DNA of 64,000 nt from Halorussus rarus. Its GTDB lineage: Archaea > Halobacteriota > Halobacteria > Halobacteriales > Haladaptataceae. A program made the position numbers and the translations under genes. The stretch is from positions 682,001 to 746,000 of the forward strand of contig NZ_QPMJ01000001.1 in NCBI RefSeq assembly GCF_003369835.1. Direction: 5' to 3'. Below the pieces are notes generated by a model. The model saw only the letters and a program-made list of their open reading frames with translations, made no database searches and was not told the DNA's origin. Below, one piece after another: positions 21,549 through 63,270 of this stretch; position 1 is the stretch's first letter, and each line of letters begins with the position of its first letter.

Positions 21549-22910
21549 ATGAACCTCTTCGGGACCGCGGGCATCCGCGGGAGCGCAGTCGAGACGGTCA
21601 CGCCGGAGCTCGCGCTGGCGGTCGGTCGGGCCGCGGGCGCCGACGGCCGGGAGTTCGTCGTCGCCCGCGACGGCCGCGAGACCGGCCCGGCGCTGGCGGC
21701 CGCGATGGAGGCCGGGCTGGAGAGCGCGGGCGCCGACGTCCGCAGGGCGGGCCAGCTGCCGACGCCGGCGCTCGCGTTCGCCTCGCGGGGCCGGCGCGGC
21801 GCGATGCTGACCGCGAGCCACAACCCGCCGACCGACAACGGCATCAAGCTGTTCGTCGACGGCGAGGAGTACGACCGCGCCGCCGAGGAGACCGTCGAGT
21901 CGCAGGTCGCGGCCGACGACCCGCCGGTGGCGTGGGACGAGTGGGGCGACGGCGAGCGGGTCGACGTCCTCGAGGAGTACCGCGAGGCGGTCGCGGCCTA
22001 CGCCGCCGAGCAGGGCGCGCCCCTCGACGGCCTGCGGGTCGTCGTCGACTGCGGCAACGGGATGGCGTCGGTGGCGACGCCCCAGGTCCTCCGGCGGCTC
22101 GGCGCGGACGTCGTCGCGCTCAACGCCAACGTCGACGGCCACTTCCCCGGCCGCGAGAGCAAGCCGACGCCCGAGTCGCTCGCGGACCTCCGGGCGTTCC
22201 TCGCGAGCGACCCCGAGGCGGACCTCGGCATCGGTCACGACGGCGACGCAGACCGCATCGTCGTGGTCGACGGCGACGGCGCGGTCGTCCACGAGGACAC
22301 GGTGGTCGCCATCCTGGCCGCCCACTACACCGAGCGGAGCGACGCCGGCGACCCGGTCGTCGTGACGACCCCCAACGCCTCGGGCCGCATCGACGAGCGA
22401 GTCGAGGCCGCGGGGGGTCGGGTCGAGCGCGTCCGTCTGGGCGCGCTCCACGAGGGCATCGCGACCGCCCGCGAGGAGGGCGGCGAGGACACCGCGGTCG
22501 CCTTCGCGGCCGAGCCCTGGAAGCACGTCCACACCCGGTTCGGCGGGTGGATCGACGGGGTGGCGAGCGCCGCGGTGGTCGCCCGGCTCGTGGCCGACGC
22601 CGGCGGCCTCGCCCCGCTCCGGGAGCCCGTCACCGAGCGCCCGTACCGGAAGGTCAGCGTCTCGTGTCCCGACGACGTCAAGGCGGACGCGATGGGGCGG
22701 CTCGAGTCGGCGATTCCCGAGCGGTTCCCCGACGCGGAGGTCGCGACCGAGTACGGCGTCCGCGCGAGCTTCCCCGACGGGTCGTGGGTGCTGGTCCGGC
22801 CGAGCGGGACCGAACCGTACGTCCGCATCTACGCCGAGAGCGACGACGTGGACGACCTCGTCGCGGACGCGACAGAGGTCGTCGAGGACGCGGTCGCGGC
22901 CGAGTCGTAG
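21549..22910 (+). CDS. glmM: Phosphoglucosamine/phosphomannomutase family protein
   Basis: The alpha-D-phosphohexomutase of 453 residues interconverts hexose 1- and 6-phosphates, for example glucosamine-6-P to glucosamine-1-P for UDP-GlcNAc synthesis. Domains and sites in order are: start FGTAGIRG (4-11), active-site phosphoserine in TASHNPP (about 88-94), metal loop DGDAD in GHDGDADR, and phosphate-binding RPSGTEPYVRIYAE near the C-terminus. Sugar specificity cannot be set from the motifs, so the symbol is provisional. TATA-like CTAAGTAT lies about 28 nt upstream. Confidence 0.85.
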   Translation: MNLFGTAGIRGSAVETVTPELALAVGRAAGADGREFVVARDGRETGPALAAAMEAGLESAGADVRRAGQLPTPALAFASRGRRGAMLTASHNPPTDNGIKLFVDGEEYDRAAEETVESQVAADDPPVAWDEWGDGERVDVLEEYREAVAAYAAEQGAPLDGLRVVVDCGNGMASVATPQVLRRLGADVVALNANVDGHFPGRESKPTPESLADLRAFLASDPEADLGIGHDGDADRIVVVDGDGAVVHEDTVVAILAAHYTERSDAGDPVVVTTPNASGRIDERVEAAGGRVERVRLGALHEGIATAREEGGEDTAVAFAAEPWKHVHTRFGGWIDGVASAAVVARLVADAGGLAPLREPVTERPYRKVSVSCPDDVKADAMGRLESAIPERFPDAEVATEYGVRASFPDGSWVLVRPSGTEPYVRIYAESDDVDDLVADATEVVEDAVAAES

Positions 22911-22984: not shown

Positions 22985-23038
22985 TGGTTTATGCCAGATT
23001 TCAGCATGGTTTTATCGCGAAACGACGGTTTTATAGCG
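22985..23038 (+). promoter_or_regulatory. Three tandem TATA-like elements before the nucleoside importer
   Basis: GGTTTATGCC (from 22986), GGTTTTATCGCG (23008-23019) and GGTTTTATAGCG (23027-23038) follow each other at about 20-bp spacing, near two DNA turns. Only the last is correctly spaced (about 28-30 nt) for a leaderless start at 23063. The others may be alternative promoters or regulator half-sites. Confidence 0.5.
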
Positions 23039-23062: not shown

Positions 23063-24208
23063 ATGACGAAGATAGACCAAGGCAAGCGACAGTTCCTCAA
23101 GGTAGGCGGCGCGGGGCTCGTCGGTACCGGCCTGGCCGGCTGTCTCGGCGGCGGCAGCGGCGGGAGCGAGACGACGACCGAGGCCGACGAGACGACCACC
23201 GAGTCCGGCGGCGAGACGACCGACTCGGGGACGACCACCGAGGCGTCCGACTCCCTGAACGTCGGGATGGTGTACTCGACCGGCGGACTCGGCGACAACT
23301 CGTTCAACGACATGGCCCACAAGGGCATCAAGCAGGCCGAGTCCGAGTACGGCGTCACCTTCAAGAACGCCGAGCCGAGCAGTCCCTCCGACATCGCGAC
23401 GCTCCAGCGTCGGTTCGCCCAGTCGGGCGACTACGACCTCATCAGCTGCATCGGCGTCGGCCAGAACACCGCGCTCACCAAGAACGCCAAGCGGTTCTCC
23501 GACCAGAAGTTCATGGTCGTCGACACGGTGGTCGACCAGCCGAACGTCTCGAGCTACACGTTCAAGGAGCACCAGGGCTCGTTCCAGGTCGGCCACCTCG
23601 CCGGGCTGCTGACCCAGCAGGACTTCAGCGCCGGGGCGGGCCAGACCACGGATACCGCGTCCGTCGGGTTCGTCGGCGGCAAGGAGATCCCGCTCATCAA
23701 GAAGTTCGAGGCCGGGTTCAAGGCCGGCGCGAAGCACGTCAGCACCGACATCGAGTTCCGGTCTGCGTACGCCGGCACGTGGAGCGACCCGGGCCAGGGC
23801 CAGTCGATCGCCAACTCGATGTACAACAACGGCGCCGACATCGTCTACCACGCCGCGGGCGGCACCGGCAACGGCGTGTTCAAGGCGGCCCAGAACCAGG
23901 GCCGGTACGCCATCGGCGTCGACGCCGACCAGTCCAAGACGCTGCCGGACTACGCGGACGTCATCCTGGCGAGCATGGTCAAGCAGGTCGACGAGGCGGT
24001 CTACCGGTCGGTCGAGAACACCGTGAACGGGAACTTCGACGGCGGGTCGTCCCACAGCCTCGGACTCGAGGCGGGCGGCGTCGAGGCGGTGTACGGCCAG
24101 CAGCTCGGCTCGGAGATCCCCGACGACGTCAAGTCGAAGCTCGAGTCCTCGCGCGAGAAGATCGTCGCGGGCGACATCGAGGTCCCGACCGACCCGAAGA
24201 ACGCCTGA
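23063..24208 (+). CDS. BMP-family nucleoside-binding lipoprotein (anchored copy)
   Basis: This basic-membrane-protein type substrate-binding protein has 381 residues. The signal contains KRQFLK, a Tat motif with Lys in place of the first Arg, and the lipobox LAGC with Cys27. A Thr/Glu-rich linker (about 33-62) follows, then the BMP domain starting LNVGMVYSTGGLGDNSFNDMA. Such proteins bind purine and pyrimidine nucleosides. The next gene is a close paralog without the lipobox. ATPase, two permeases, cdd and udp follow, which supports a nucleoside substrate. Confidence 0.92.
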   Translation: MTKIDQGKRQFLKVGGAGLVGTGLAGCLGGGSGGSETTTEADETTTESGGETTDSGTTTEASDSLNVGMVYSTGGLGDNSFNDMAHKGIKQAESEYGVTFKNAEPSSPSDIATLQRRFAQSGDYDLISCIGVGQNTALTKNAKRFSDQKFMVVDTVVDQPNVSSYTFKEHQGSFQVGHLAGLLTQQDFSAGAGQTTDTASVGFVGGKEIPLIKKFEAGFKAGAKHVSTDIEFRSAYAGTWSDPGQGQSIANSMYNNGADIVYHAAGGTGNGVFKAAQNQGRYAIGVDADQSKTLPDYADVILASMVKQVDEAVYRSVENTVNGNFDGGSSHSLGLEAGGVEAVYGQQLGSEIPDDVKSKLESSREKIVAGDIEVPTDPKNA

Positions 24209-24302
24209 ACGGGCTCTCTGCGGTCGCTCTTCTCTCTTTCGCGCCGTCTGTCTCTCAACAAAGCGTCGCTTTCATGACCGTCGGCGCTGAAGTCCGTGTG
24301 GT

Positions 24303-25379
24303 ATGTGGGGGAGAAACACGCGACGACGCCGATTCTTGCGAGCGCTGGGCGGGACGGCCGCGCTCGGGACGACCGGGTTCCTGCAGGACAGCACGACCAA
24401 CGTCGGGATGGTGTACGCCACCGGCGGGCTGGGCGACAACTCGTTCAACGACATGGCCCACACCGGGGTCCAGCGGGCCGCCGAGCAGTTCGACGTGGAG
24501 TTCCAGAACGCCGAACCGGGGAGTCCGAGCGACGTGACGTCGCTCCAGCGCCGGTTCGCCCGGTCGCAGAACCCGGACTACGACCTGATCTGCTGCATCG
24601 GGTTCGTGCAGGCCGAGGGGCTCCAGCGCAACGCCCAGCGGTTCCGCGACCAGCGGTTCATGGTGGTCGACACGGTAGTCGAACAGCCCAACGTGGCGAG
24701 CTACACGTTCAAGGAGCACCAAGGCTCGTTCCAGGTCGGTCACCTCGCGGGGCTGATGACGACGATGGACTTCAGCGCCGGGGCGGGCCAGACCAACGAC
24801 GCGACGACCGTCGGGTTCGTCGGCGGCCAGGAGGTCCCGCTCATCAAGAAGTTCGAGGCGGGCTACATGGCGGGCGTCAAGCACGCGAACCCCGACGTCG
24901 ACGTGCTCTCGGCGTACGCCGGGTCGTTCAGCGACCCCGCGCAGGGCCAGTCGATCGCCAACTCGATGTACAACAACGGCGCCGACATCATCTACCACGC
25001 GGCGGGCGGCACCGGCAACGGCGTGTTCCGGGCGGCCCAGAACCAGGGCCGGTACGGCATCGGCGTCGACGCCGACCAGTCACAGAGCCTGTCGGACTAC
25101 GCCAACGTGATACTGGCGAGCATGGTCAAACACGTCGACAACGCCGTCTTCCGGTCCATCCGCGGGGTCGTCGAGGGCAACTTCGAGGGCGGCTCGGTCA
25201 ATCGGCTCGGGCTGGAGCAGAACGGCGTCGAGGCGGTGTACGGCCAGCAGCTGGGGTCCGAGATTCCCCAGGAGGTCAAGTCCGCGCTCCAGCAGTCCGA
25301 GCGGCGGATCGTGAACGGCGAGATCGAGGTGCCGACCGCACCGGCACAGGTCGGGCAGTCGACGACCACAACGCAGTGA
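24303..25379 (+). CDS. BMP-family nucleoside-binding protein (copy without lipobox)
   Basis: This 358-residue paralog of the preceding gene has most residues in the mature domain identical by eye, including SFNDMAH, SYTFKEHQGSFQVGHLAGL and GQSIANSMYNNGADI. The N-terminus has a strong Tat motif, RRRRFLRALGG, but no cysteine follows and the Thr-rich linker is absent. The protein is therefore predicted to be exported folded and either released or kept by an uncleaved helix. The 94-bp gap after the first copy and same strand suggest tandem duplication and cotranscription. Confidence 0.9.
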   Translation: MWGRNTRRRRFLRALGGTAALGTTGFLQDSTTNVGMVYATGGLGDNSFNDMAHTGVQRAAEQFDVEFQNAEPGSPSDVTSLQRRFARSQNPDYDLICCIGFVQAEGLQRNAQRFRDQRFMVVDTVVEQPNVASYTFKEHQGSFQVGHLAGLMTTMDFSAGAGQTNDATTVGFVGGQEVPLIKKFEAGYMAGVKHANPDVDVLSAYAGSFSDPAQGQSIANSMYNNGADIIYHAAGGTGNGVFRAAQNQGRYGIGVDADQSQSLSDYANVILASMVKHVDNAVFRSIRGVVEGNFEGGSVNRLGLEQNGVEAVYGQQLGSEIPQEVKSALQQSERRIVNGEIEVPTAPAQVGQSTTTTQ

Positions 25380-25540
25380 CCCCGACGCCGACCGCCAGGC
25401 AGTGATTCGCACGCCGACCACGGGGTAGGCCTGTCGAATCGACAGCGGGACCGGCGATAAGGCGAACACGTGTCTCTTTTCCGAACGCTCCTCTACAAAT
25501 CACGCATCTTAAGCGGACCCGTCGTGAACACCGACCAAAG

Positions 25541-27097
25541 ATGACCGTAGCCGTCCACCTGGAGGGGATAACCAAGCGGTTCCCCGGCGTCGTCGCCAAC
25601 GACGAGGTCGACCTCGCGGTGGAGGAGGGGAGCGTCCACGCCCTCCTCGGCGAGAACGGGGCGGGGAAGACGACGCTGATGAACGTGCTGTACGGTCTCT
25701 ACCAGCCCGAGGGCGGGACCGTCCACGTGCACGGGGAGCCCCGCGAGTTCGACACGCCGCGGGACGCCATCGACGCGGGCATCGGGATGATACACCAGCA
25801 CTTCATGCTCGTCGACACGCTGAGCACCGCCGAGAACATCGTGCTCGGCCACGAGCCCCGGAAGTGGGGCGGACTCGCGATGGACCGGGCGCAGGCCGAG
25901 GCGGACGTCCGGGAACTGAGCGAGCGCTACGGCTTCGACGTCGACCCGACCGCCCGCATCGAGGACGTCAGCGTGGGGGTCCAGCAGCGCGTCGAGATTC
26001 TGAAGGCGCTGTACGGCGGCGCCGACGTGCTCATCCTCGACGAGCCGACTGCGGTGCTCACGCCCCAGGAGGTCGAGGACCTCTTCGAGGTGTTCGACGA
26101 GCTGGCGGCCGAGGACAAGACCATCATCTTCATCACCCACAAGCTGGGCGAGGCGATGGAGGCCGCCGACGACATCACGGTGCTCCGGGACGGCCGGAAC
26201 GTCGGGACGGTGGACGCCGACGCCACGAGCCGCGAGGAGCTCGCCGAGCTGATGGTCGGCCGGGAGGTGCTGCTCGAGGCCGACAAGGAGCCCGCCGAAC
26301 CGGGCGACGTCGGCCTGTCGGTGTCGGACCTGCGGGTCACCGACGACCGGGGCGTCGAGCAGGTCGGCGGCGTCGACATCGCGGCCCGCGAGGGCGAGGT
26401 GTTCGGCATCGCCGGGGTGGACGGCAACGGTCAGTCGGAGCTCGTCGAGGCCATCACCGGGCTCGCCGCGCCCGAGGAGGGGTCGGTCTCGATGGGCGGC
26501 CGGGACGTCACCGACCTCTCGCGCCGCGAGCGCATCGACGCCGGGATGGCCTACGTCCCCGAGGACCGCCAGGAGCGCGGGCTGGTGATGGAGTTCGACC
26601 TGGTGGAGAACGGGCTGCTCGGCAGCCAGCACGGCCCGCCGTTCGCCGGCGGGGGCCGCATCGACTGGGGCCAGACCCGCGACCACGCCGAGGACGTCAT
26701 CGAGGAGTACGACGTGCGGCCGCCGAACGCCGACGCCGAGGCCGAGTCGCTGTCGGGCGGCAACCAGCAGAAGTTCGTCGTCGGCCGGGAGTTCGCCCGC
26801 GACCCCGAGGTGGTGGTCGCCTCGCATCCGACCCGCGGGGTCGACGTGGGGAGCATCGAGTTCATCCACGAGCGCATCCTCGACCTCCGGCGTGCGGGCA
26901 AGACCGTGCTGCTGGTCTCCTCGAAGCTCGACGAGGTCCAGCAGCTCTCCGACCGGCTCGCCGTGATGTACGAGGGCGAGATCATGGACGTGGTCGACCC
27001 CGACGCGGTGACAGAGGAGGAGCTGGGCCTGCTGATGGCGGGCGAACACCCCGAGGACGCGCCCAGCATCGCCGACCCCGTCGGGGGTGAGCGATGA
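25541..27097 (+). CDS. Nucleoside ABC importer ATPase (duplicated ATPase domains)
   Basis: The 518-residue protein carries two ABC domains, as in the YufO/RbsA type. Domain 1 has Walker A GENGAGKTT (37-45), a weak signature VGVQQRVEI and Walker B LILDEPT. Domain 2 has a degenerate P-loop, AGVDGNGQSEL, the signature LSGGNQQKF and ASHPTRGVD, with Ser-His in place of the usual Asp-Glu of Walker B. Such asymmetry is usual in this group. The stop overlaps the following permease start (ATGA). Confidence 0.93.
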   Translation: MTVAVHLEGITKRFPGVVANDEVDLAVEEGSVHALLGENGAGKTTLMNVLYGLYQPEGGTVHVHGEPREFDTPRDAIDAGIGMIHQHFMLVDTLSTAENIVLGHEPRKWGGLAMDRAQAEADVRELSERYGFDVDPTARIEDVSVGVQQRVEILKALYGGADVLILDEPTAVLTPQEVEDLFEVFDELAAEDKTIIFITHKLGEAMEAADDITVLRDGRNVGTVDADATSREELAELMVGREVLLEADKEPAEPGDVGLSVSDLRVTDDRGVEQVGGVDIAAREGEVFGIAGVDGNGQSELVEAITGLAAPEEGSVSMGGRDVTDLSRRERIDAGMAYVPEDRQERGLVMEFDLVENGLLGSQHGPPFAGGGRIDWGQTRDHAEDVIEEYDVRPPNADAEAESLSGGNQQKFVVGREFARDPEVVVASHPTRGVDVGSIEFIHERILDLRRAGKTVLLVSSKLDEVQQLSDRLAVMYEGEIMDVVDPDAVTEEELGLLMAGEHPEDAPSIADPVGGER

Positions 27098-28476
27098 GTT
27101 CGAGCGGTCCCGACGACGCGCCGGACCGCGACGACGGTGACGAGACCGACCCGAATCCGGAGGACTCGTGGCAGGGCCGGGCCGACCGCGCGCTCGGGCG
27201 GCTGGTCGACGCCTCCGCGGTCGAACGGATCCTCATCAGCCTCGCGGCGCTCGCGCTGTCGGTGGTCGTCGGCGCGCTGGTCGTGCTCGCGTCGGGGTGG
27301 GTGGCGACCTGCGACTCGCCGTTCTTCGCCGCCTCCGGCGTCGGGTCGTTCTGCTACGACCCGGTCGCGGTCTACCGGGTCATGCTCGGCGGCGCGCTGT
27401 TCCCGTCGTACAACTTCGCGCTCACGCTCAAGGAGACGACGCTGCTGCTGTTCACGGGGCTGGCGGTCGCGGTCTCGTTCCGCGCCGGGATGTTCAACAT
27501 CGGGACCCAGGGCCAGCTGGTGCTGGGCGCGCTCGGGACCGCGCTGGCGGTCGTCTGGGTGGCGCCGGTGGTCCCCGCGGGCGCGGTGGGCGGGCTGATC
27601 CTGATAACCGTCGGCCTGCTCGCCGGCGCCGTCGTCGGCGGCATCTGGGGGGCGATTCCGGGCGCGCTGAAGGCCTACGCCGACGCCAACGAGGTCATCA
27701 CGACCATCATGCTCAACTTCGTGGCGTCGGGCATCGCGTTCACGCTGGTCTCGGAGGTGTTCAAGGACCCCAACAGCCAGACCGTCCAGACCCGGGCGGT
27801 CCCGGAGTTCGCGCGGTTCCAGCCGGTCTTCTTCGGGGAGTCGGTGTTCTCGTTCTCGGCCTACGCGCTGGTCGGGGCGCTCGCGCTGGCGGGTGCCATC
27901 TACTGGATGCTCAACGGGACCTCGTTCGGGTACGACCTCCGGACGAGCGGCGTCCAGCCGGAGGCCGCCGAGTACGGCGGCGTCGACGCCGAGCGGACGA
28001 TGGTTTCGAGCATGGCGCTGTCGGGCGCCATCGGCGGGCTCGGCGGCGCGGTGTACGTCCTGATGGTCGCCTCGCGGTGGCGAACCGGAATCCCGTCGCT
28101 GGGCTTCGACGGCATCACCGTCTCCATCCTCGCGGGCAACAACCCGCTGGGGGTCATCCCGGCGGCGCTGCTGTTCGGCGCGCTCAAGACCGGGAGCCTC
28201 TCCATCGAGTTCCAGCTCGCGGTGCCCAAACAGCTGGTCGGGGTCCTGCGCGGGCTCATCATCCTGTTCGTCGCCATGCCGGAGTTCTTCCGGATGGTCG
28301 GCGCGCGGTTCCGGTTCGGCGAGGAGCAGCCGTCGGTGGCGACCGACGGCGGCGGCGGAACTGGGGGCGACAGCGTCGAAGGGACCACAGACGGCCCGGT
28401 CGGCGGGCAGACGGACGCCCTTGACGGCGAGACGACCGACGCCGCCGGCGACGACCGCGGGGGTGACGACCGATGA
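27094..28476 (+). CDS. Nucleoside ABC importer permease 1 (BPD_transp_2 family)
   Basis: The 460-residue membrane protein is YufP-like. An acidic cytoplasmic N-terminus of about 35 residues precedes roughly ten helices; the family core is FRAGMFNIGTQGQLVLGA, KAYADANEVITTIMLNF and GFDGITVSILAGNNPLG. A 50-residue Asp/Gly/Thr-rich tail follows the last helix. It overlaps both neighbours by 4 bp and pairs with the second permease as a heterodimer. Confidence 0.92.
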   Translation: MSSSGPDDAPDRDDGDETDPNPEDSWQGRADRALGRLVDASAVERILISLAALALSVVVGALVVLASGWVATCDSPFFAASGVGSFCYDPVAVYRVMLGGALFPSYNFALTLKETTLLLFTGLAVAVSFRAGMFNIGTQGQLVLGALGTALAVVWVAPVVPAGAVGGLILITVGLLAGAVVGGIWGAIPGALKAYADANEVITTIMLNFVASGIAFTLVSEVFKDPNSQTVQTRAVPEFARFQPVFFGESVFSFSAYALVGALALAGAIYWMLNGTSFGYDLRTSGVQPEAAEYGGVDAERTMVSSMALSGAIGGLGGAVYVLMVASRWRTGIPSLGFDGITVSILAGNNPLGVIPAALLFGALKTGSLSIEFQLAVPKQLVGVLRGLIILFVAMPEFFRMVGARFRFGEEQPSVATDGGGGTGGDSVEGTTDGPVGGQTDALDGETTDAAGDDRGGDDR

Positions 28477-29507
28477 GCTACGCCGGCCCCTCGCGGAAGC
28501 GCCGCTGGCTCGGGGGCGCGGCGGCCCTGGTCGCGCTCGTGCTGGTCGCGGTCGAGCTGTTCTTCCCGGAGAGCCCGGTGTCGGAGATCGTCCGCATCGT
28601 CGACGCGAACTACGTGCGAGCGGTGCTGCGGCTCGCGGTCCCCATCGCGTTCGCGGCGCTCGGCGGCATCTTCGCCGAGAAGAGCGGCGTCATCAACATC
28701 GGACTCGAGGGGCTGCTCATCATCTCGGCGTTCACCTCGGTCGCGGTGGCCGCGACCATTGGCGGCGGGAGCCCCACGCAACTCGAGCTGTGGCTCGGTT
28801 TCTGGGCCGCGGTACTGGCGAGCGTGCTGTTCTCGCTGCTGTTCGCGGTCGTCTGTATCGAGTTCAAGGCCGACCAGATCATCGCCGGCCTGGCGGTCTG
28901 GCTCATCGCGCTCGGCCTCGCGCCGTTCGCGAGCAAGGTCATCTGGGGCCAGGTCAACAGCCCGCCGGTCGCCACGCTGAACAACTTCGACCTGCTGGTG
29001 GCCGAGGTGAACCCGCCGGTCGTGATGATGCTGGTCGCGGTGCCCGCGGCGTGGTACGCGCTGAACCGGACCGCCTTCGGTCGGTGGATCGAGGCCAGCG
29101 GGGAGAACCCGAAGGCGCTCGATACCGTGGGCGTCGACGTCCGGAAGGTGCGGTACTCGGGCGTGCTGCTGTCCGGGTTTTTCTCGGGGCTCGGCGGCGC
29201 CGGCCTGGCGCTCGGTCGCGTCGGCCAGTTCATCGGCGGCGGGGCGACGATGGTCAACGGCCGGGGCTGGATCGGCATCACGGCGCTGCTGTTCGGCAAC
29301 TACAACCCGCTCGGGGCGTTCGGCGCGTCGTTCCTGTTCGCGAGCCTGGACGCGCTCCAGATCCGGCTCCAGCAGCTCGGCTACAGCATCCCGAGCGAGC
29401 TCATCGGCATCATCCCGTACGTGACCGTGGTCGTGGTGCTGGCGTTCGTCGGTCACACCCGGATTCCGGACGCCGCGGGCGAGCACTACGAGTCCGGCGA
29501 GGAGTAG
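28473..29507 (+). CDS. Nucleoside ABC importer permease 2 (BPD_transp_2 family)
   Basis: The 344-residue membrane protein is YufQ-like, with about eight to ten helices. Core motifs are FAEKSGVINIGLEGLLIISA, KADQIIAGLAVWLIALGL and NGRGWIGITALLFGNYNPLG. It is last in the SBP-SBP-ATPase-permease-permease series and starts within the previous gene (ATGA). A hairpin repeat and cdd follow. Confidence 0.93.
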   Translation: MSYAGPSRKRRWLGGAAALVALVLVAVELFFPESPVSEIVRIVDANYVRAVLRLAVPIAFAALGGIFAEKSGVINIGLEGLLIISAFTSVAVAATIGGGSPTQLELWLGFWAAVLASVLFSLLFAVVCIEFKADQIIAGLAVWLIALGLAPFASKVIWGQVNSPPVATLNNFDLLVAEVNPPVVMMLVAVPAAWYALNRTAFGRWIEASGENPKALDTVGVDVRKVRYSGVLLSGFFSGLGGAGLALGRVGQFIGGGATMVNGRGWIGITALLFGNYNPLGAFGASFLFASLDALQIRLQQLGYSIPSELIGIIPYVTVVVVLAFVGHTRIPDAAGEHYESGEE

Positions 29508-29571: not shown

Positions 29572-29682
29572 GGCTCAGCCCTCTCGGGGTAGTCGGACTG
29601 GCGGTCCCCAGTGCGCGCAGACTGCCCTCCTTCGGGACCGCGCGAGGCGTCCGGCCGAGATTCGTCCCGACTTCGCATTTCA
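29572..29682 (+). repeat. Hairpin repeat R2, copy A (inward-facing)
   Basis: A 111-bp element starting GGCTCAGCCCTCTCGGGG and ending CTTCGCATTT. Three nested stems are visible: TCTCGG (29582-29587) with CCGAGA (29655-29660), CGGAC (29594-29598) with GTCCG (29649-29653), and GCGGTC (29601-29606) with GACCGC (29636-29641). The reverse-complement copy at 31788-31885 keeps the stems while the apical loop differs. The two copies bracket cdd, a lipoprotein gene and udp. Confidence 0.85.
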
Positions 29683-29730
29683 ACCTTCGGGACTCGCTTT
29701 CGCTCGCAAGGACCTGTCGGGCGAGGGCGG

Positions 29731-29738
29731 GAGATATA
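29731..29738 (+). promoter_or_regulatory. TATA element of cdd
   Basis: GAGATATAT lies about 30 nt before the cdd ATG at 29767, giving cdd its own promoter separate from the importer genes upstream. Confidence 0.5.
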
Positions 29739-29766
29739 TGGCCCGCGCCTCCCAACCTCCACCACC

Positions 29767-30153
29767 ATGGACGAACTCATCGAGGCCGCCCGCGAGGTGC
29801 AGGACGAGGCCCACGTCCCCTACTCGGACTACCCGGTCGGCGCGGCGCTCCGGACCGCCGACGGCAGCGTCTACGTCGGCTGCAACATCGAGAACGCCAA
29901 CTACAGTAACTCCCTCCACGCCGAGGAGGTCGCGGTCGCGGAGGCGGTCAAGCAGGGCCACCGCGAGTTCGACGCGCTGGCGGTGAGTTCGGGCCGGCGC
30001 GACGGCGTGACCCCCTGCGGGATGTGCCGCCAGACGCTCTCGGAGTTCTGCGACGACGACATGCCGGTGGTCTGCGACGAGGGCGACGACGTCGCGGAGT
30101 ACACGCTCGGCGAGCTCCTGCCGAACACCATCACCGAGGAGATGCTGGAGTAA
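29767..30153 (+). CDS. cdd: Cytidine deaminase
   Basis: The 128-residue enzyme deaminates cytidine and deoxycytidine to uridine. The zinc site is complete: HAEE (51-54) and PCGMC (83-87). NIENANYSNSLHAEE is the homotetrameric Cdd signature, and length fits. Its product uridine is the substrate of the Udp encoded 600 bp downstream. The longer frame upstream of 29767 overlaps repeat R2 and is not used. Confidence 0.95.
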   Translation: MDELIEAAREVQDEAHVPYSDYPVGAALRTADGSVYVGCNIENANYSNSLHAEEVAVAEAVKQGHREFDALAVSSGRRDGVTPCGMCRQTLSEFCDDDMPVVCDEGDDVAEYTLGELLPNTITEEMLE

Positions 30154-30641: not shown

Positions 30642-30714
30642 CACTCTGAACTCTCACACGGCCTCCATGAGTGTTTTCCTGTCGACACCACGCCGCCCCG
30701 GGGCGCGACGAACC

Positions 30715-30722
30715 CTTTATAC
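30715..30722 (+). promoter_or_regulatory. TATA element of udp
   Basis: CTTTATAC lies about 28-30 nt before the udp ATG at 30747, indicating a leaderless or nearly leaderless transcript. Confidence 0.55.
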
Positions 30723-30746
30723 TCGCCGACCGAGTCAGCCAACGGC

Positions 30747-31568
30747 ATGACCGGCGACAGCGAAGACCCCAACGACGACGTGCAGTACCACATCGAGGTC
30801 GGCGAGGGCGACGTTGCCGACGCGGTCCTCCTGCCGGGCAATCCCGAGCGCATCGAGAAGATAACCCAGTTCTGGGACTCGGCCGAGGAGGTGGCCCGCC
30901 ACCGCGAGTACCGGACCGTCACGGGCGAGTACGAGGGGACGCCCGTCAGCGTCACCTCGACCGGCATCGGCAGCCCCTCGGCGGCAATCGCGGTCGAGGA
31001 ACTCGCCCGGGTCGGCGCGGACACCTTCATCCGCGTGGGGTCGTGCGGCGCCATCCAGCCCGACATGGCGGTCGGCGACCTCGTCATCTCGACCGGCGGC
31101 GTCCGCCAGGAGGGCACCAGCGACGCGTACGTCCGGGAGGACTACCCCGCCGTCGCCGACTACGAGGTCGTCTCCGCACTCGTCGCGGCCGCCGAACGTC
31201 TGGGCTACGACTACCACACCGGCGTCACGATGAGCGCCGACAGCTTCTACGCCGGTCAGGGCCGGCCGGGGTTCGAGGGGTTCGAGGCCGCGGGCAGCGA
31301 CGAACTCGTCGAGACGCTGAAGGACGCGAACGTCAAGAACATCGAGATGGAGGCCTCCGCCATCATGACGCTGGCCAGCATCTACGGCCTCCGGGCGGGT
31401 GCGGTCTGCTCGGTGTTCGCCAACCGTGAGACCGGCGAGTTCCTGACCGAGGGCGAGAACCGCGCGGCCGAGACCGCGAGCCTCGCGGTGAAGCTGCTCG
31501 CGCAGATGGACGCGACGAAGGCGGAGGCCGGCGTCGAGCGGTGGCATTCTGGTCTCAGCCTCGACTGA
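30747..31568 (+). CDS. udp: Uridine phosphorylase-type nucleoside phosphorylase
   Basis: The NP-I family enzyme of 273 residues splits uridine (and possibly other nucleosides) with phosphate to base and ribose 1-phosphate. Landmarks are VLLPGNPERIEKI (28-40), TGIGSPSAAIAVEEL, RVGSCGAI (phosphate site) and NIEMEASAIMTLA (the Glu-Met-Glu ribose site). Context with Cdd and a nucleoside importer supports a pyrimidine role. The last 18 codons recur, diverged, 191 bp downstream. Confidence 0.92.
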   Translation: MTGDSEDPNDDVQYHIEVGEGDVADAVLLPGNPERIEKITQFWDSAEEVARHREYRTVTGEYEGTPVSVTSTGIGSPSAAIAVEELARVGADTFIRVGSCGAIQPDMAVGDLVISTGGVRQEGTSDAYVREDYPAVADYEVVSALVAAAERLGYDYHTGVTMSADSFYAGQGRPGFEGFEAAGSDELVETLKDANVKNIEMEASAIMTLASIYGLRAGAVCSVFANRETGEFLTEGENRAAETASLAVKLLAQMDATKAEAGVERWHSGLSLD

Positions 31569-59404: not shown

Positions 59405-60730
59405 ATGTCACGGGGAAATGACACTGATGTGACGCGGAGAGACGTCGTCAAGATGGCCGGAGCGACCGGTATCGCGGGGGTCGCCGGGGTCGCCGGAAGC
59501 GCGAGCGCACAGGAGTATCCGCCGATTGGGAACTACCCGATTCAGGGCAACCCGACGTTCGGGTTCACGGTGCCCCAGTCGGGACCGTACTCCTCGGAGG
59601 GACAGGACGAGCTCCGGGCGTACGAGTTGGCCGTCGAACACCTGAACAACGGTGGCGGCTGGGTCGACAGCTGGGACGGCCTCTCTGGGAACGGCGTGCT
59701 GGACCAGCAGATCGAGTTCGTGAGCGGCGACACCGCGACCGACGCCGACACGGCCCGCCAGACCGCGCGCCGGATGATCCAGCGCGACCAGGCGATCATG
59801 CTCTCGGGCGGGTCCTCGAGCGCGGTCGCCATCGCCATCCAGGAGCTGTGCCAGCGCGAGCGGGTCCAGTACCAGTGCTGTCTGACCCACTCGAACGAGA
59901 CCACGGGCTCGAACTGCGTCCGGTACTCCTTCCGGGAGATGTTCAACGCCTACATGACGGCGCAGGCGCTGGTGCCGCCGGTGACGAACGAGTACGGCCA
60001 GAACAACAACTTCTACCAGCTGTACGCTGACTACAGCTGGGGCCAGACCCAGCAGGCCTCGATGAGCCAGTTCTTCTCCGAGGCGGGCTGGAACGAGATA
60101 CAGAGCGTGGCCACGCCGCTCGGGACGAAGGACTTCTCGTCGTACCTCTCGCAGGTGCCCCGGCAGCGGACCGACGTGTTGTTCCTCAACCACTACGGGC
60201 TCGACGGCGCGAACTCGCTGAGTCAGGCGATCGACATGGGGCTCGACGAGGACATGGAGATCGTCGTGCCGCTGTACAACCGGCCGATGGCCCAGGCCGC
60301 CGGCGGCGCCATCGGGGGCATCTTCGGGACCGTCGCCTGGGACTCCCAGATCGACAACCAGCCCTCGAACGACTTCACGCAGACGTTCCGGGAGAAGTAC
60401 GAGCGCATCCCGTCGGGACCGGCCCAGCTCGCGTACGCCCAGACGCTCCAGTACGCCGCGGCGGTCGAGCGGGCGGGCACCTTCTACCCGCCGGAAGTCA
60501 TCAAGCAACTGGAAGGGTACCAGTACAACAACTTCGGCATGGGGCAGGAGACGATGCGTAAGTGCGACCACCAGGCTCAGCGCGCGGTGCCGGTCGTCAA
60601 GGGGCTGCCCCAGAGCGAACAGCAGCAGGGGCAGTTCTTCGAGATCGTCAACCTCACGCCGGCCGACCAGCTCGGGTACGGCTGCGACGAAGGGCCCGCC
60701 GCGGAGTGCGACCTGGGCCCCTACGAGTAG
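59405..60730 (+). CDS. LIV/amide-type substrate-binding protein (copy without lipobox)
   Basis: The 441-residue Peripla_BP_6-type binding protein has Tat motif TRRDVVK (10-16), a Gly/Ala/Val hydrophobic stretch and an AxA-type site (GSASA before QE, near residue 35). There is no lipobox Cys, so a free exported form is predicted. The mature part has VPQSGPYSSEGQDELRAYELA and a Ser-rich ligand loop, GGSSSAVAIAIQEL. Several Cys residues (QCCLTH, NCVRYS, KCDHQA) suggest disulfides. The next gene is a close paralog with a lipobox; two permeases follow. The ligand could be a branched amino acid, amide or urea. Confidence 0.9.
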   Translation: MSRGNDTDVTRRDVVKMAGATGIAGVAGVAGSASAQEYPPIGNYPIQGNPTFGFTVPQSGPYSSEGQDELRAYELAVEHLNNGGGWVDSWDGLSGNGVLDQQIEFVSGDTATDADTARQTARRMIQRDQAIMLSGGSSSAVAIAIQELCQRERVQYQCCLTHSNETTGSNCVRYSFREMFNAYMTAQALVPPVTNEYGQNNNFYQLYADYSWGQTQQASMSQFFSEAGWNEIQSVATPLGTKDFSSYLSQVPRQRTDVLFLNHYGLDGANSLSQAIDMGLDEDMEIVVPLYNRPMAQAAGGAIGGIFGTVAWDSQIDNQPSNDFTQTFREKYERIPSGPAQLAYAQTLQYAAAVERAGTFYPPEVIKQLEGYQYNNFGMGQETMRKCDHQAQRAVPVVKGLPQSEQQQGQFFEIVNLTPADQLGYGCDEGPAAECDLGPYE

Positions 60731-60867: not shown

Positions 60868-62214
60868 ATGCCACAAGCTAACGGTGGCCCTACGCGACGC
60901 GATGTCGTGAAGGCAGCGAGCGCGACGGGCGCGGCGAGTATCGCTTCGATCGCGGGATGCCTCGGCGGTGGCGGAGGCGGCGGATCGGAAGACTACCCCG
61001 CGCTGGGGAACTACCCCGTCGAGGGCGACACGGTGATGCTGGGGTTCAACGTCCCGCAGTCTGGTCCCTACTCCTCGGAGGGGAAGGACGAGCTCCGGGC
61101 GTACAAGCTCGCCGTGAAGCACCTGAACAACGGCGGCGGCTGGGTCGACGGCTGGAGCGACCTCTCGGCCGACGGCGTGCTCGGCAAGACGGTCGACTAC
61201 GTGACCGGCGACACCGCGACCGACGCCGACACCGCCCGGCAGTCCGCCCGCCGGATGATCCAGCGTGACAACGTCCAGATGGTCTCCGGCGGGTCGTCGA
61301 GCGCGGTCGCCATCGCGGTCCAGGAGCTGTGCCAGCAGGAGAAGGTCATGTTCATGGCGTGCCTGACCCACTCGAACGACACCACGGGCAAGAACTGCGT
61401 CCGGTACGGCTTCCGGGAGATGTTCAACGCCTACATGACCGGCCAGGCGCTCGCGCCGGTCGTCACCGAGGAGTACGGCGACGACCTCGAGTTCTACCAG
61501 CTGTACGCCGACTACAGCTGGGGGAAGACCCAGCAGGCCTCGATGAAGAAGTTCTTCGAGGAGGCCGGCTGGTCGGAGGTCGACAGCGTGCCCACGCCGC
61601 TGGGTACCAAGGACTACCAGTCGTACCTCTCGGAGGCCCGGAACTCGGGTGCCGACGCCATCTTCCTCAACCACTACGGGCTCGACGGCGCGAACTCGCT
61701 GGGCGGGGCCATCGACATGGGGCTCGACGAGGACATGGAGATCGTGATGCCGCTGTACAACCGGCCGATGGCCCAGGCCGCCGGCGGCGCCATCGAGGGT
61801 ATCTACGGCACGGTCGCGTGGGACGCCCAGATCGACAACGAGCCGTCGAACAGCTTCACCAAGGCGTTCGGCGACGAGTACAGCGGTCGGGTCCCGTCGG
61901 GGCCGGCCCAGCTGGCGTACGCCCAGACCCTCCAGTGGGCCGCGGCGGCCGAGCGGGCGGGGACGTTCTACCCGCCGGAGATCATCAAGCAGCTCGAGGG
62001 TCGGAGCTACAACAACCTCGGGATGGGCAAGGAGACGATGCGCAAGTGCGACCACCAGGCCCAGCGCGCGGTCCCGGTCGTCAAGGGCCTCCCGGGGTCC
62101 GAGCAGGGCTCGGGGCAGTTCTTCGACCTGGTCAACCTCACCTCGCGGAGCGAACTCGGCTACGGTTGCGACGAAGGGCCGGCCGGAGAGTGCGAACTCG
62201 GTTCGTACGAATAG
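60868..62214 (+). CDS. LIV/amide-type substrate-binding lipoprotein (anchored copy)
   Basis: The 448-residue paralog of the previous gene has most of the mature residues identical by eye. The signal has TRRDVVK (9-15) and lipobox SIAGC with Cys31, followed by a poly-Gly linker, so it should be lipid-anchored. The binding domain repeats PQSGPYSSEGKDELRAYKLA and SGGSSSAVAIAVQEL. ATG 60868 is chosen; a promoter with AATTATATAACAG (60820-60832) lies 35-45 nt upstream, so this copy can be expressed on its own. Confidence 0.92.
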   Translation: MPQANGGPTRRDVVKAASATGAASIASIAGCLGGGGGGGSEDYPALGNYPVEGDTVMLGFNVPQSGPYSSEGKDELRAYKLAVKHLNNGGGWVDGWSDLSADGVLGKTVDYVTGDTATDADTARQSARRMIQRDNVQMVSGGSSSAVAIAVQELCQQEKVMFMACLTHSNDTTGKNCVRYGFREMFNAYMTGQALAPVVTEEYGDDLEFYQLYADYSWGKTQQASMKKFFEEAGWSEVDSVPTPLGTKDYQSYLSEARNSGADAIFLNHYGLDGANSLGGAIDMGLDEDMEIVMPLYNRPMAQAAGGAIEGIYGTVAWDAQIDNEPSNSFTKAFGDEYSGRVPSGPAQLAYAQTLQWAAAAERAGTFYPPEIIKQLEGRSYNNLGMGKETMRKCDHQAQRAVPVVKGLPGSEQGSGQFFDLVNLTSRSELGYGCDEGPAGECELGSYE

Positions 62215-62334: not shown

Positions 62335-63270
62335 GTGAGTCTTGTTTCCCAAGTGGCTACAGTGCTGATAAACGGGCTCCAGCAGGGAGCCATCTACGTG
62401 TTGGTCGCGATCGGGCTGTCGATCATCCTCGGCACGCTCAAGTTCGTCAACTTCGCCCACGGGGCGCTGTACCTCATCGGGACGTACGTCGGCCTGTTCA
62501 TCACGCTGGAGGTGCAGCTGACCGGCGGGAAGTTGATGGAGTGGGGGTACACCGAACTCGGACTCGGCTGGGGCTTCCTGCCGGCGCTCATCATCGTTCC
62601 CGCGGTGGTGTTCGTCGTCGGCATCGTGATGGAGCGGTTCGTGGCCAGGCCGTTCTACGACAGGCCGGACACCGACCAGATACTGCTGACGTTCGGGCTG
62701 GCTATCGTCGTCCAGGAGCTGTTCAAGATCCTGTTCGGCGGCCAGAGCTACAACTTCGCGCGCCCGGCGTGGGCGAGCGGTCCGGTCTCGGTTCCCGTCA
62801 TCGGTAGCTTCCCGCAGTGGCGGCTGTACGTGCTGGGCATCACCGCGGTGCTGGTCGCCGGGGTCTACCTGCTCATTGAGTACACTGACTTCGGACTGGT
62901 CGTCCGGGCGGGCACGCGGGACGCCGAGATGGTCCAGCTCCTCGGTATCAAGATCACCCGGCCGTACCTCATGGTGTTCGGCGTCGGCGCGGCGCTGGCG
63001 GGCGTCGCCGGCGTGGTCGGCGGGCCGCTGTACGCGGTCAACCCCAACATCGGCACCGAGGTGCTGGTGCCGGCGTTCCTCGTCGTCGTCATCGGCGGGG
63101 TCGGCTCCATTACCGGCGCGGTGATCGGCGGCATCCTCATCGGCGAGACGCTGGCCATCCTGGTCGCGGTCGCGCCCCAGTGGTCCCAGGTCGGCATCTA
63201 CGTGCTGGCGGCCGTCGTGCTGCTCGCGCGGCCCCAGGGCCTGCTCGGCGTCGAGGAGGTGACGCCATGA
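62335..63270 (+). CDS. Branched-chain amino acid-type ABC permease (LivH family)
   Basis: The 311-residue membrane protein starts with GTG and has eight helices; landmarks are LQQGAIYVLVAIGLSIILGTLKFVNFAHGAL and ALAGVAGVVGGPLYAVNPNIG. It uses a purine-rich GGGGGAGAAGC before the GTG as a likely ribosome-binding site. TATA-like sites occur at 62240-62248 and 62275-62282. Stop and next start overlap (ATGA). Confidence 0.9.
   Translation: MSLVSQVATVLINGLQQGAIYVLVAIGLSIILGTLKFVNFAHGALYLIGTYVGLFITLEVQLTGGKLMEWGYTELGLGWGFLPALIIVPAVVFVVGIVMERFVARPFYDRPDTDQILLTFGLAIVVQELFKILFGGQSYNFARPAWASGPVSVPVIGSFPQWRLYVLGITAVLVAGVYLLIEYTDFGLVVRAGTRDAEMVQLLGIKITRPYLMVFGVGAALAGVAGVVGGPLYAVNPNIGTEVLVPAFLVVVIGGVGSITGAVIGGILIGETLAILVAVAPQWSQVGIYVLAAVVLLARPQGLLGVEEVTP

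Follow-up and report, generated by a model that had tools for sequence, protein, structure and literature searches.

The nucleoside-uptake locus

In the window analyzed here, a 64,000 nt stretch of the Halorussus rarus genome, positions 23063–24208 encode BMP copy 1, a predicted Tat lipoprotein and nucleoside-binding protein of 381 amino acids. Positions 24303–25379 encode BMP copy 2, a Tat-type nucleoside-binding protein of 358 amino acids that displays neither a lipobox Cys nor a linker. Both open reading frames, together with the other features of this locus, are on the forward strand. Both match the BMP/PnrA-like domain PF02608 over its whole length (copy 1: 215 bits, E-value = 1.4e-63; copy 2: 212 bits, E-value = 1.1e-62; cut-off 24.1 bits), and the original prediction of tandem BMP nucleoside-binding proteins is borne out. 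The prediction also described the binding domains as nearly the same. They are similar in sequence, but only to the extent of 71% identity and 82% similarity over 332 residues.

A gene of the phosphomannomutase/phosphoglucomutase family is a conserved neighbor upstream of the BMP pair at positions 21549–22910. Downstream of the pair is an ABC ATPase of the sugar/nucleoside type with two nucleotide-binding domains (positions 25541–27097, PF00005 in two stretches), which is followed by two permeases at positions 27094–28476 and 28473–29507 (both PF02653). The open reading frame at positions 29611–30153 contains the cytidine deaminase gene cdd, whose true start is further in (TIGR01354, 143.2 bits, above the cut-off). 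A nucleoside phosphorylase of the uridine phosphorylase type, udp, matches PF01048 and scores 277.9 bits with TIGR01718, just below the cut-off of 280.3; its positions 30654–31568 are those of the segment searched and not of the gene start. The order is thus phosphomutase gene, copy 1, copy 2, ABC ATPase, permease, permease, cdd and udp, and by its gene content the locus is a predicted nucleoside-uptake operon. A single ABC-permease-permease set lies downstream of both receptors, as had been proposed.

An assignment to the putative B6 ABC transporter (NF047927–NF047930) was considered and rejected, as copies 1 and 2 score 65 and 69 bits against a cut-off of 400 and the ATPase scores 474 against 670. 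An Rfam search of the region matched no RNA element.

The N-terminal regions of the two copies

The N-terminal sequence of copy 1 is MTKIDQGKRQFLKVGGAGLVGTGLAGC27. This Tat signal peptide (positions 23063–23143) displays the Tat motif KRQFLK and the lipobox LAGC. The Cys27 codon is at positions 23141–23143, and the Cys is found in all 15 copy 1 orthologues. A linker of 38 residues rich in Gly, Thr and Glu follows (residues 28–65, positions 23144–23257), and the lipobox Cys27 and Thr-rich linker of the original prediction are both present.

The N-terminal sequence of copy 2 is MWGRNTRRRRFLRALGGTAALGTTGFLQDSTTNVGMVY. Its Tat signal at positions 24303–24377, supported by alignment of 15 copy 2 orthologues, contains RRRRFLR and, further on, GTTG. 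The weaker Tat motif in this genome is that of copy 1, which has a single Arg (KRQFLK); several copy 1 relatives have RR. At the position of LAGC in copy 1, copy 2 reads GTTGFLQ, and the 15 aligned orthologues show [T/A/S]-x-G-[F/L/R]-[L/V]-Q. The lipobox Leu at -3 is replaced by T, A or S, with Gly at -1, in 14 of the 15 sequences, and the Gln of the [L/V]-Q motif is invariant in all 15. The linker is absent and the first strand begins at residue 32 of the AlphaFold model. The strong Tat motif and missing linker attributed to copy 2 are thus found. Across orthologues the length from the Met to the domain motif is variable in copy 1 (48–80 residues) and nearly constant in copy 2 (39–46 residues). 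The Cys and the tether linker have been lost together in copy 2.

By the haloarchaeal Tat lipoprotein pattern of a Tat motif with a lipobox Cys, copy 1 is predicted to be lipidated, whereas copy 2 has the Tat motif only. The claim that copy 2 is without any cysteine holds for the signal and N-terminal region; however, Cys97 and Cys98 are in the binding domain. A hidden upstream start that would give copy 2 an N-terminal Cys was rejected, as no in-frame ATG, GTG or TTG is found between the preceding stop codon and the Met. At its C-terminal end copy 2 carries a Thr tail, VGQSTTTTQ (positions 25350–25376), which is kept in the 12-member copy 2 clade described below and is not present in copy 1.

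Promoter-like elements

Three promoter-like elements are kept in 15 genomes. The copy 1 element, with the consensus GAAGCGACGGTTTTAT, is at positions 23019–23035 and precedes the ATG by about 30 bp. A separate element, AAAGCGTCGCTTTCAT, is found for copy 2 at positions 24260–24275 (consensus AAAGCgTCG..TTCAT) and resembles that of copy 1. The third, CTTAAGC, is at positions 25508–25514 before the ABC gene. Their conservation makes a transcription start proper to copy 2 probable.

Fold and ligand pocket

The AlphaFold model of copy 2 (pLDDT 88.9) displays the PnrA fold. Its best PDB matches by Foldseek are guanosine-bound Lbp (7x0r, 7.9e-29) and inosine-bound PnrA (2fqw, 2.2e-27). Nucleoside contact positions are known for PnrA, BmpA and BmpD (PMC13325309, PMC7093131). 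Both copies have the residues that form the aromatic sandwich in PnrA (F36/F186) and contact ribose in BmpA (D98, D225 and K242); these are F48, F209, D123, D256 and K276 in copy 2 and F81, W240, D154, D287 and K307 in copy 1. Copy 2 residues D45, F48, N49, D123, D256 and K276, the equivalents of nucleoside and ribose contacts in PnrA/BmpA, are invariant in 29 sequences. The pocket, together with the cdd and udp neighbors, suggests that both copies bind nucleosides.

The two copies may differ mainly in ligand specificity, copy 2 being for another nucleoside and the loss of the anchor incidental. At the stacking aromatic position the present genome has W240 in copy 1 and F209 in copy 2, and in loop 1 of the pocket it has V132-G133 (GVGQ) in copy 1 and F101-V102 (GFVQ) in copy 2. 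From general knowledge, LivJ and LivK provide a case of two receptors of different specificity with one permease. BmpA and BmpD of Borrelia also differ in specificity (PMC13325309). However, over 15 genomes neither the W/F/Y at the aromatic position nor loop 1 segregates by copy, and a copy-specific switch of the pocket was rejected on this account. The copy 1 loop GVGQ is unusual and is found in this genome alone, and only one core position (Y314/F283) is a fixed difference between the copies in the main group. A general split in specificity is thus unsupported; the differences seen here could represent drift in this species. A specificity difference is accordingly regarded as an improbable account of the pair.

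Recurrence in Halorussus and in other genera

The tandem BMP pair is found in 15 of the 18 Halorussus genomes searched. In every one of the 15 pairs copy 1 has the lipobox Cys and copy 2 has a Tat motif without it, and the proposed arrangement of one copy with and one copy without a lipid-anchor signal therefore applies to all of them. The genomes without the pair are G012, which is 62% complete, G017, which has more distant BMPs only, and G001 (H. halobius), which has one hybrid gene. This lone BMP of H. halobius (L039, 5004–5978) is similar to copy 1 in its 5′ part and to copy 2 at its 3′ end and tail (VGATTTDR). It is most simply read as a deletion by recombination between tandem copies, with the lipobox end retained.

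Two further sequences may be mentioned. Copy 1 of G015 (L006) runs at its 3′ end into a different C-terminus and has a chain length of 409 aa, probably from a frameshift or an assembly error. A third BMP of the present genome, G000 (G000:C2:323702–324703, L003), is 43% identical to copy 2 and has the lipobox GLAGC.

Outside Halorussus, a lipobox Cys is present in all of the approximately 60 BMPs read to the N-terminus, including those of Haladaptatus, Haloarcula, Halomicroarcula, Halorhabdus, Natronorubrum, Halobiforma, Saliphagus, Natronococcus and Halospeciosus. In the equivalent operon of other haloarchaea a single BMP, with the lipobox Cys, precedes the ABC gene. Among the matches listed for 293 genomes of the order, where weaker tandem matches outside Halorussus could be missed, adjacent BMP matches are found in Halorussus and in no other genus. 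One class of such weaker matches, a divergent tandem BMP pair of genus g21, has the Cys in both members. The recurrence anticipated for the Cys-plus/Cys-minus pair is therefore seen within Halorussus but not in the BMPs read from other genera, and the pair was rejected as a general haloarchaeal feature. Within the genus the pair appears to be maintained and not to be due to chance: the Cys-less copy is present in 15 of the 18 genomes, its N-terminus hardly varies in length (39–46 residues), and similar pairs occur among unrelated nutrient receptors. A literature search found no paper on Halorussus binding proteins.

Duplication, gene conversion and selection

In the sequence tree copy 2 forms a clade of 12 (support 100/98) and copy 1 a weakly supported group of 11 (86/71). 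Three genomes, G006, G009 and G011, depart from this in that their copy 1 and copy 2 binding domains cluster by genome (96/94; G009 98/97). The copy 2 signal peptides and upstream element of these genomes are homologous to those of all other copy 2 genes, which makes an independent duplication less likely. The simplest reading, and a probable one, is a single duplication, after which gene conversion in this lineage affected the domain and left the N-terminus untouched. The grouping of binding domains by genome in this lineage, where the signals have nevertheless remained different, also argues against specificity as the main difference between the copies.

The within-genome excess of identical codons has a mean of 0.057. 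A control pair for codon usage gives an excess of 0.031 versus 0.038 for the BMP pair in the same seven genomes. This control explains most of the excess in these seven other genomes, and gene conversion in all genomes was rejected; the evidence for it is firm for the G006/G009/G011 lineage and weak elsewhere.

Copy 2 is under purifying selection and is not decaying. Its orthologues display Nei-Gojobori dN/dS values of 0.08–0.33, with GC-rich codon bias influencing the synonymous term, and the mean pN is 0.112 for copy 2 versus 0.138 for copy 1. In favor of a redundant or decaying duplicate that lost its lipobox Cys by drift is H. halobius, which lost the pair and kept the hybrid with the lipobox end. 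Such decay is nevertheless very improbable for copy 2, which is kept in 15 genomes with a low dN/dS, a conserved upstream element and a constant N-terminal length.

The probable fate and role of copy 2

The reading we favor, with a probability of about 0.62, is that copy 2 is a Tat-exported, unlipidated receptor which is freed and which takes the same class of nucleoside as copy 1, feeding the shared permease beside the tethered copy 1.

Signal peptidase I follows a small-residue -3/-1 rule, and the T, A or S at -3 with Gly at -1 in copy 2 fits this rule. Cleavage after G25 or before Q28 (TTG/FLQ or FL/Q) may be guessed, although neither candidate site is a classic AxA. Approximately six residues separate the candidate site from the first strand. 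The hydrophobic core of the signal is weak and short. Kyte-Doolittle maxima over 19 residues are 0.58–1.24 in 14 of the 15 copy 2 signals, the uncharged run is 15–20 residues in 12 of the 15, and in G005, G008, G010 and G014 an Arg follows after 15 residues. The short, weakly hydrophobic core, the -3/-1 residues and the loss of the linker together favor a released protein. Of the states offered by the original prediction, free or membrane-helix-retained, the free state is thus likeliest. The retained state is disfavored by the low hydrophobicity, the Arg interruption in four genomes and the short spacing to the domain.

Comparable changes have been made in Haloferax, where Cys-to-Ser mutants of the Tat lipoproteins DsbA, Mbp and Ibp were found in the supernatant (PMC2945643). 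Two others, of Hvo_B0139 and Hvo_1242, stayed cell-associated, which was attributed to an uncleaved signal (PMC2945643). The latter two, and the lack of an AxA site in most copy 2 sequences, are consistent with an exported copy 2 whose uncleaved signal serves as an N-terminal membrane anchor, so that both copies would be tethered, copy 2 by protein and not by lipid. This is unlikely, however, in view of the hydrophobicity values and short or Arg-ended runs given above. In addition, with no linker and a strand from residue 32, a domain tethered in this way would press on the membrane, and the AlphaFold model shows no helix at residues 1–28 (at low confidence).

For the released receptor the following sequence of events is proposed. 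A single-copy lipoprotein receptor for nucleosides was duplicated, promoter included, in the Halorussus lineage. Copy 1 retained the lipobox and linker and would be membrane-tethered. Copy 2 retained the Tat signal and lost the lipobox Cys and linker, and would be exported unlipidated. It would become free most likely through cleavage by signal peptidase I or by simple release, and would then probably be located beneath the S-layer or in the medium. We infer from sequence and gene position that it takes the same nucleoside class as copy 1 and passes its ligand to the sole downstream permease. Together the two copies may both raise and spread nucleoside capture under the S-layer and possibly beyond, which would agree with the wider capture or scavenging outside the S-layer originally suggested.

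Other receptors without a lipobox Cys

Pfam family searches of this genome (SBP_bac_1, SBP_bac_5, Peripla_BP_6 and BMP) show a Tat motif without a lipobox Cys in 18 of 41 receptors. Of the 15 SBP_bac_5 proteins of this genome 6 are of this Cys-less type, whereas three genomes from other genera have 1 among 27 (Fisher p = 0.005, with Halorussus represented by a single genome). A search of 16 Halorussus genomes found a discordant tandem pair of SBP_bac_5 proteins, SVAGY beside TLAGC, in 12. The window itself contains a Peripla_BP_6 pair, in which the copy at positions 59405–60730 has no Cys (GSASA/QEYPP) and the copy at positions 60868–62214 has the lipobox IAGC and a Gly linker. These two are 72.5% identical and are located directly before a LivH/UrtB-type permease at position 62335; the pairing is likewise seen in G013, in G017 and in G018, a genome of the sister genus. 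Another discordant Peripla_BP_6 pair is on contig 2 of this genome. All four tandem receptor pairs examined in this genome are discordant, though the number is small and no selection rule had been set in advance. It is conceivable, and offered only tentatively, that Halorussus repeatedly splits receptors (nucleoside, SBP_bac_5 peptide-type and urea/branched-chain-type Peripla_BP_6) into tethered and untethered tandem copies with one permease, a two-tier capture arising by loss of the lipobox Cys.

Several features of these N-termini were also observed. In the SBP_bac_5 pair at G000:C3:337230–340158 (L199/L115) and its relatives (L182–L210), VAGY or VTGY stands opposite LAGC and the signals are otherwise very alike. 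Tyr at the place of the lipobox Cys (LTGY, LSGY, VAGY, TTGY, GGY) is seen in L108, L111, L114, L116 and L142 of this genome and in L219 of genus g21; it occurs in several unrelated Tat receptors and is a single-base change from Cys. A Gln is found 20–31 residues past the RR pair in 17 of the 18 Cys-less Tat receptors of this genome, often right after a small residue (SASA/Q, TVTA/Q, TAVA/Q) and sometimes after Arg. This Gln could mark the mature N-terminus.

Relation to known systems

PnrA/TmpC of Treponema pallidum (Tp0319), PnrA of S. pneumoniae, BmpA/BmpD of Borrelia and Lbp of Clostridium share the PF02608 fold and pocket with copies 1 and 2. The T. pallidum gene is likewise in an ABC operon, and Borrelia likewise has several Bmp paralogues. 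All of these are known as lipoproteins, whereas copy 2 of Halorussus has neither lipobox Cys nor linker. Haladaptatus, Haloarcula, Natronorubrum, Halobiforma and others have the same domain in the same BMP-ABC-permease-permease order, and most of these have the upstream phosphomutase and downstream cdd as in Halorussus, but their operon has one BMP, with the lipobox Cys, in place of two. LivJ/LivK and HisJ/ArgT of enterobacteria are paralogous receptors, both soluble, which serve one transporter and differ in specificity. The Halorussus copies would also feed one transporter but differ instead in anchoring. The Haloferax Cys-to-Ser mutants are, as copy 2 is, Tat receptor precursors without a lipobox Cys (PMC2945643), but they were made in the laboratory, whereas copy 2 is a natural, conserved paralogue with the further changes of Leu to T, A or S at -3 and of linker loss. 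Tat export, lipobox loss and a shared permease are thus of known kinds; the conserved pairing and its recurrence are new.

The fate of archaeal binding proteins without the lipobox Cys is known mainly from these Haloferax point mutants, which are inconsistent (PMC2945643). The Halorussus pairs are natural and conserved, with near-equivalent binding domains and a common transporter operon, and offer a clean comparison. They open the questions of what benefit tethering brings to an S-layered cell and of whether an unlipidated receptor can feed an ABC importer.
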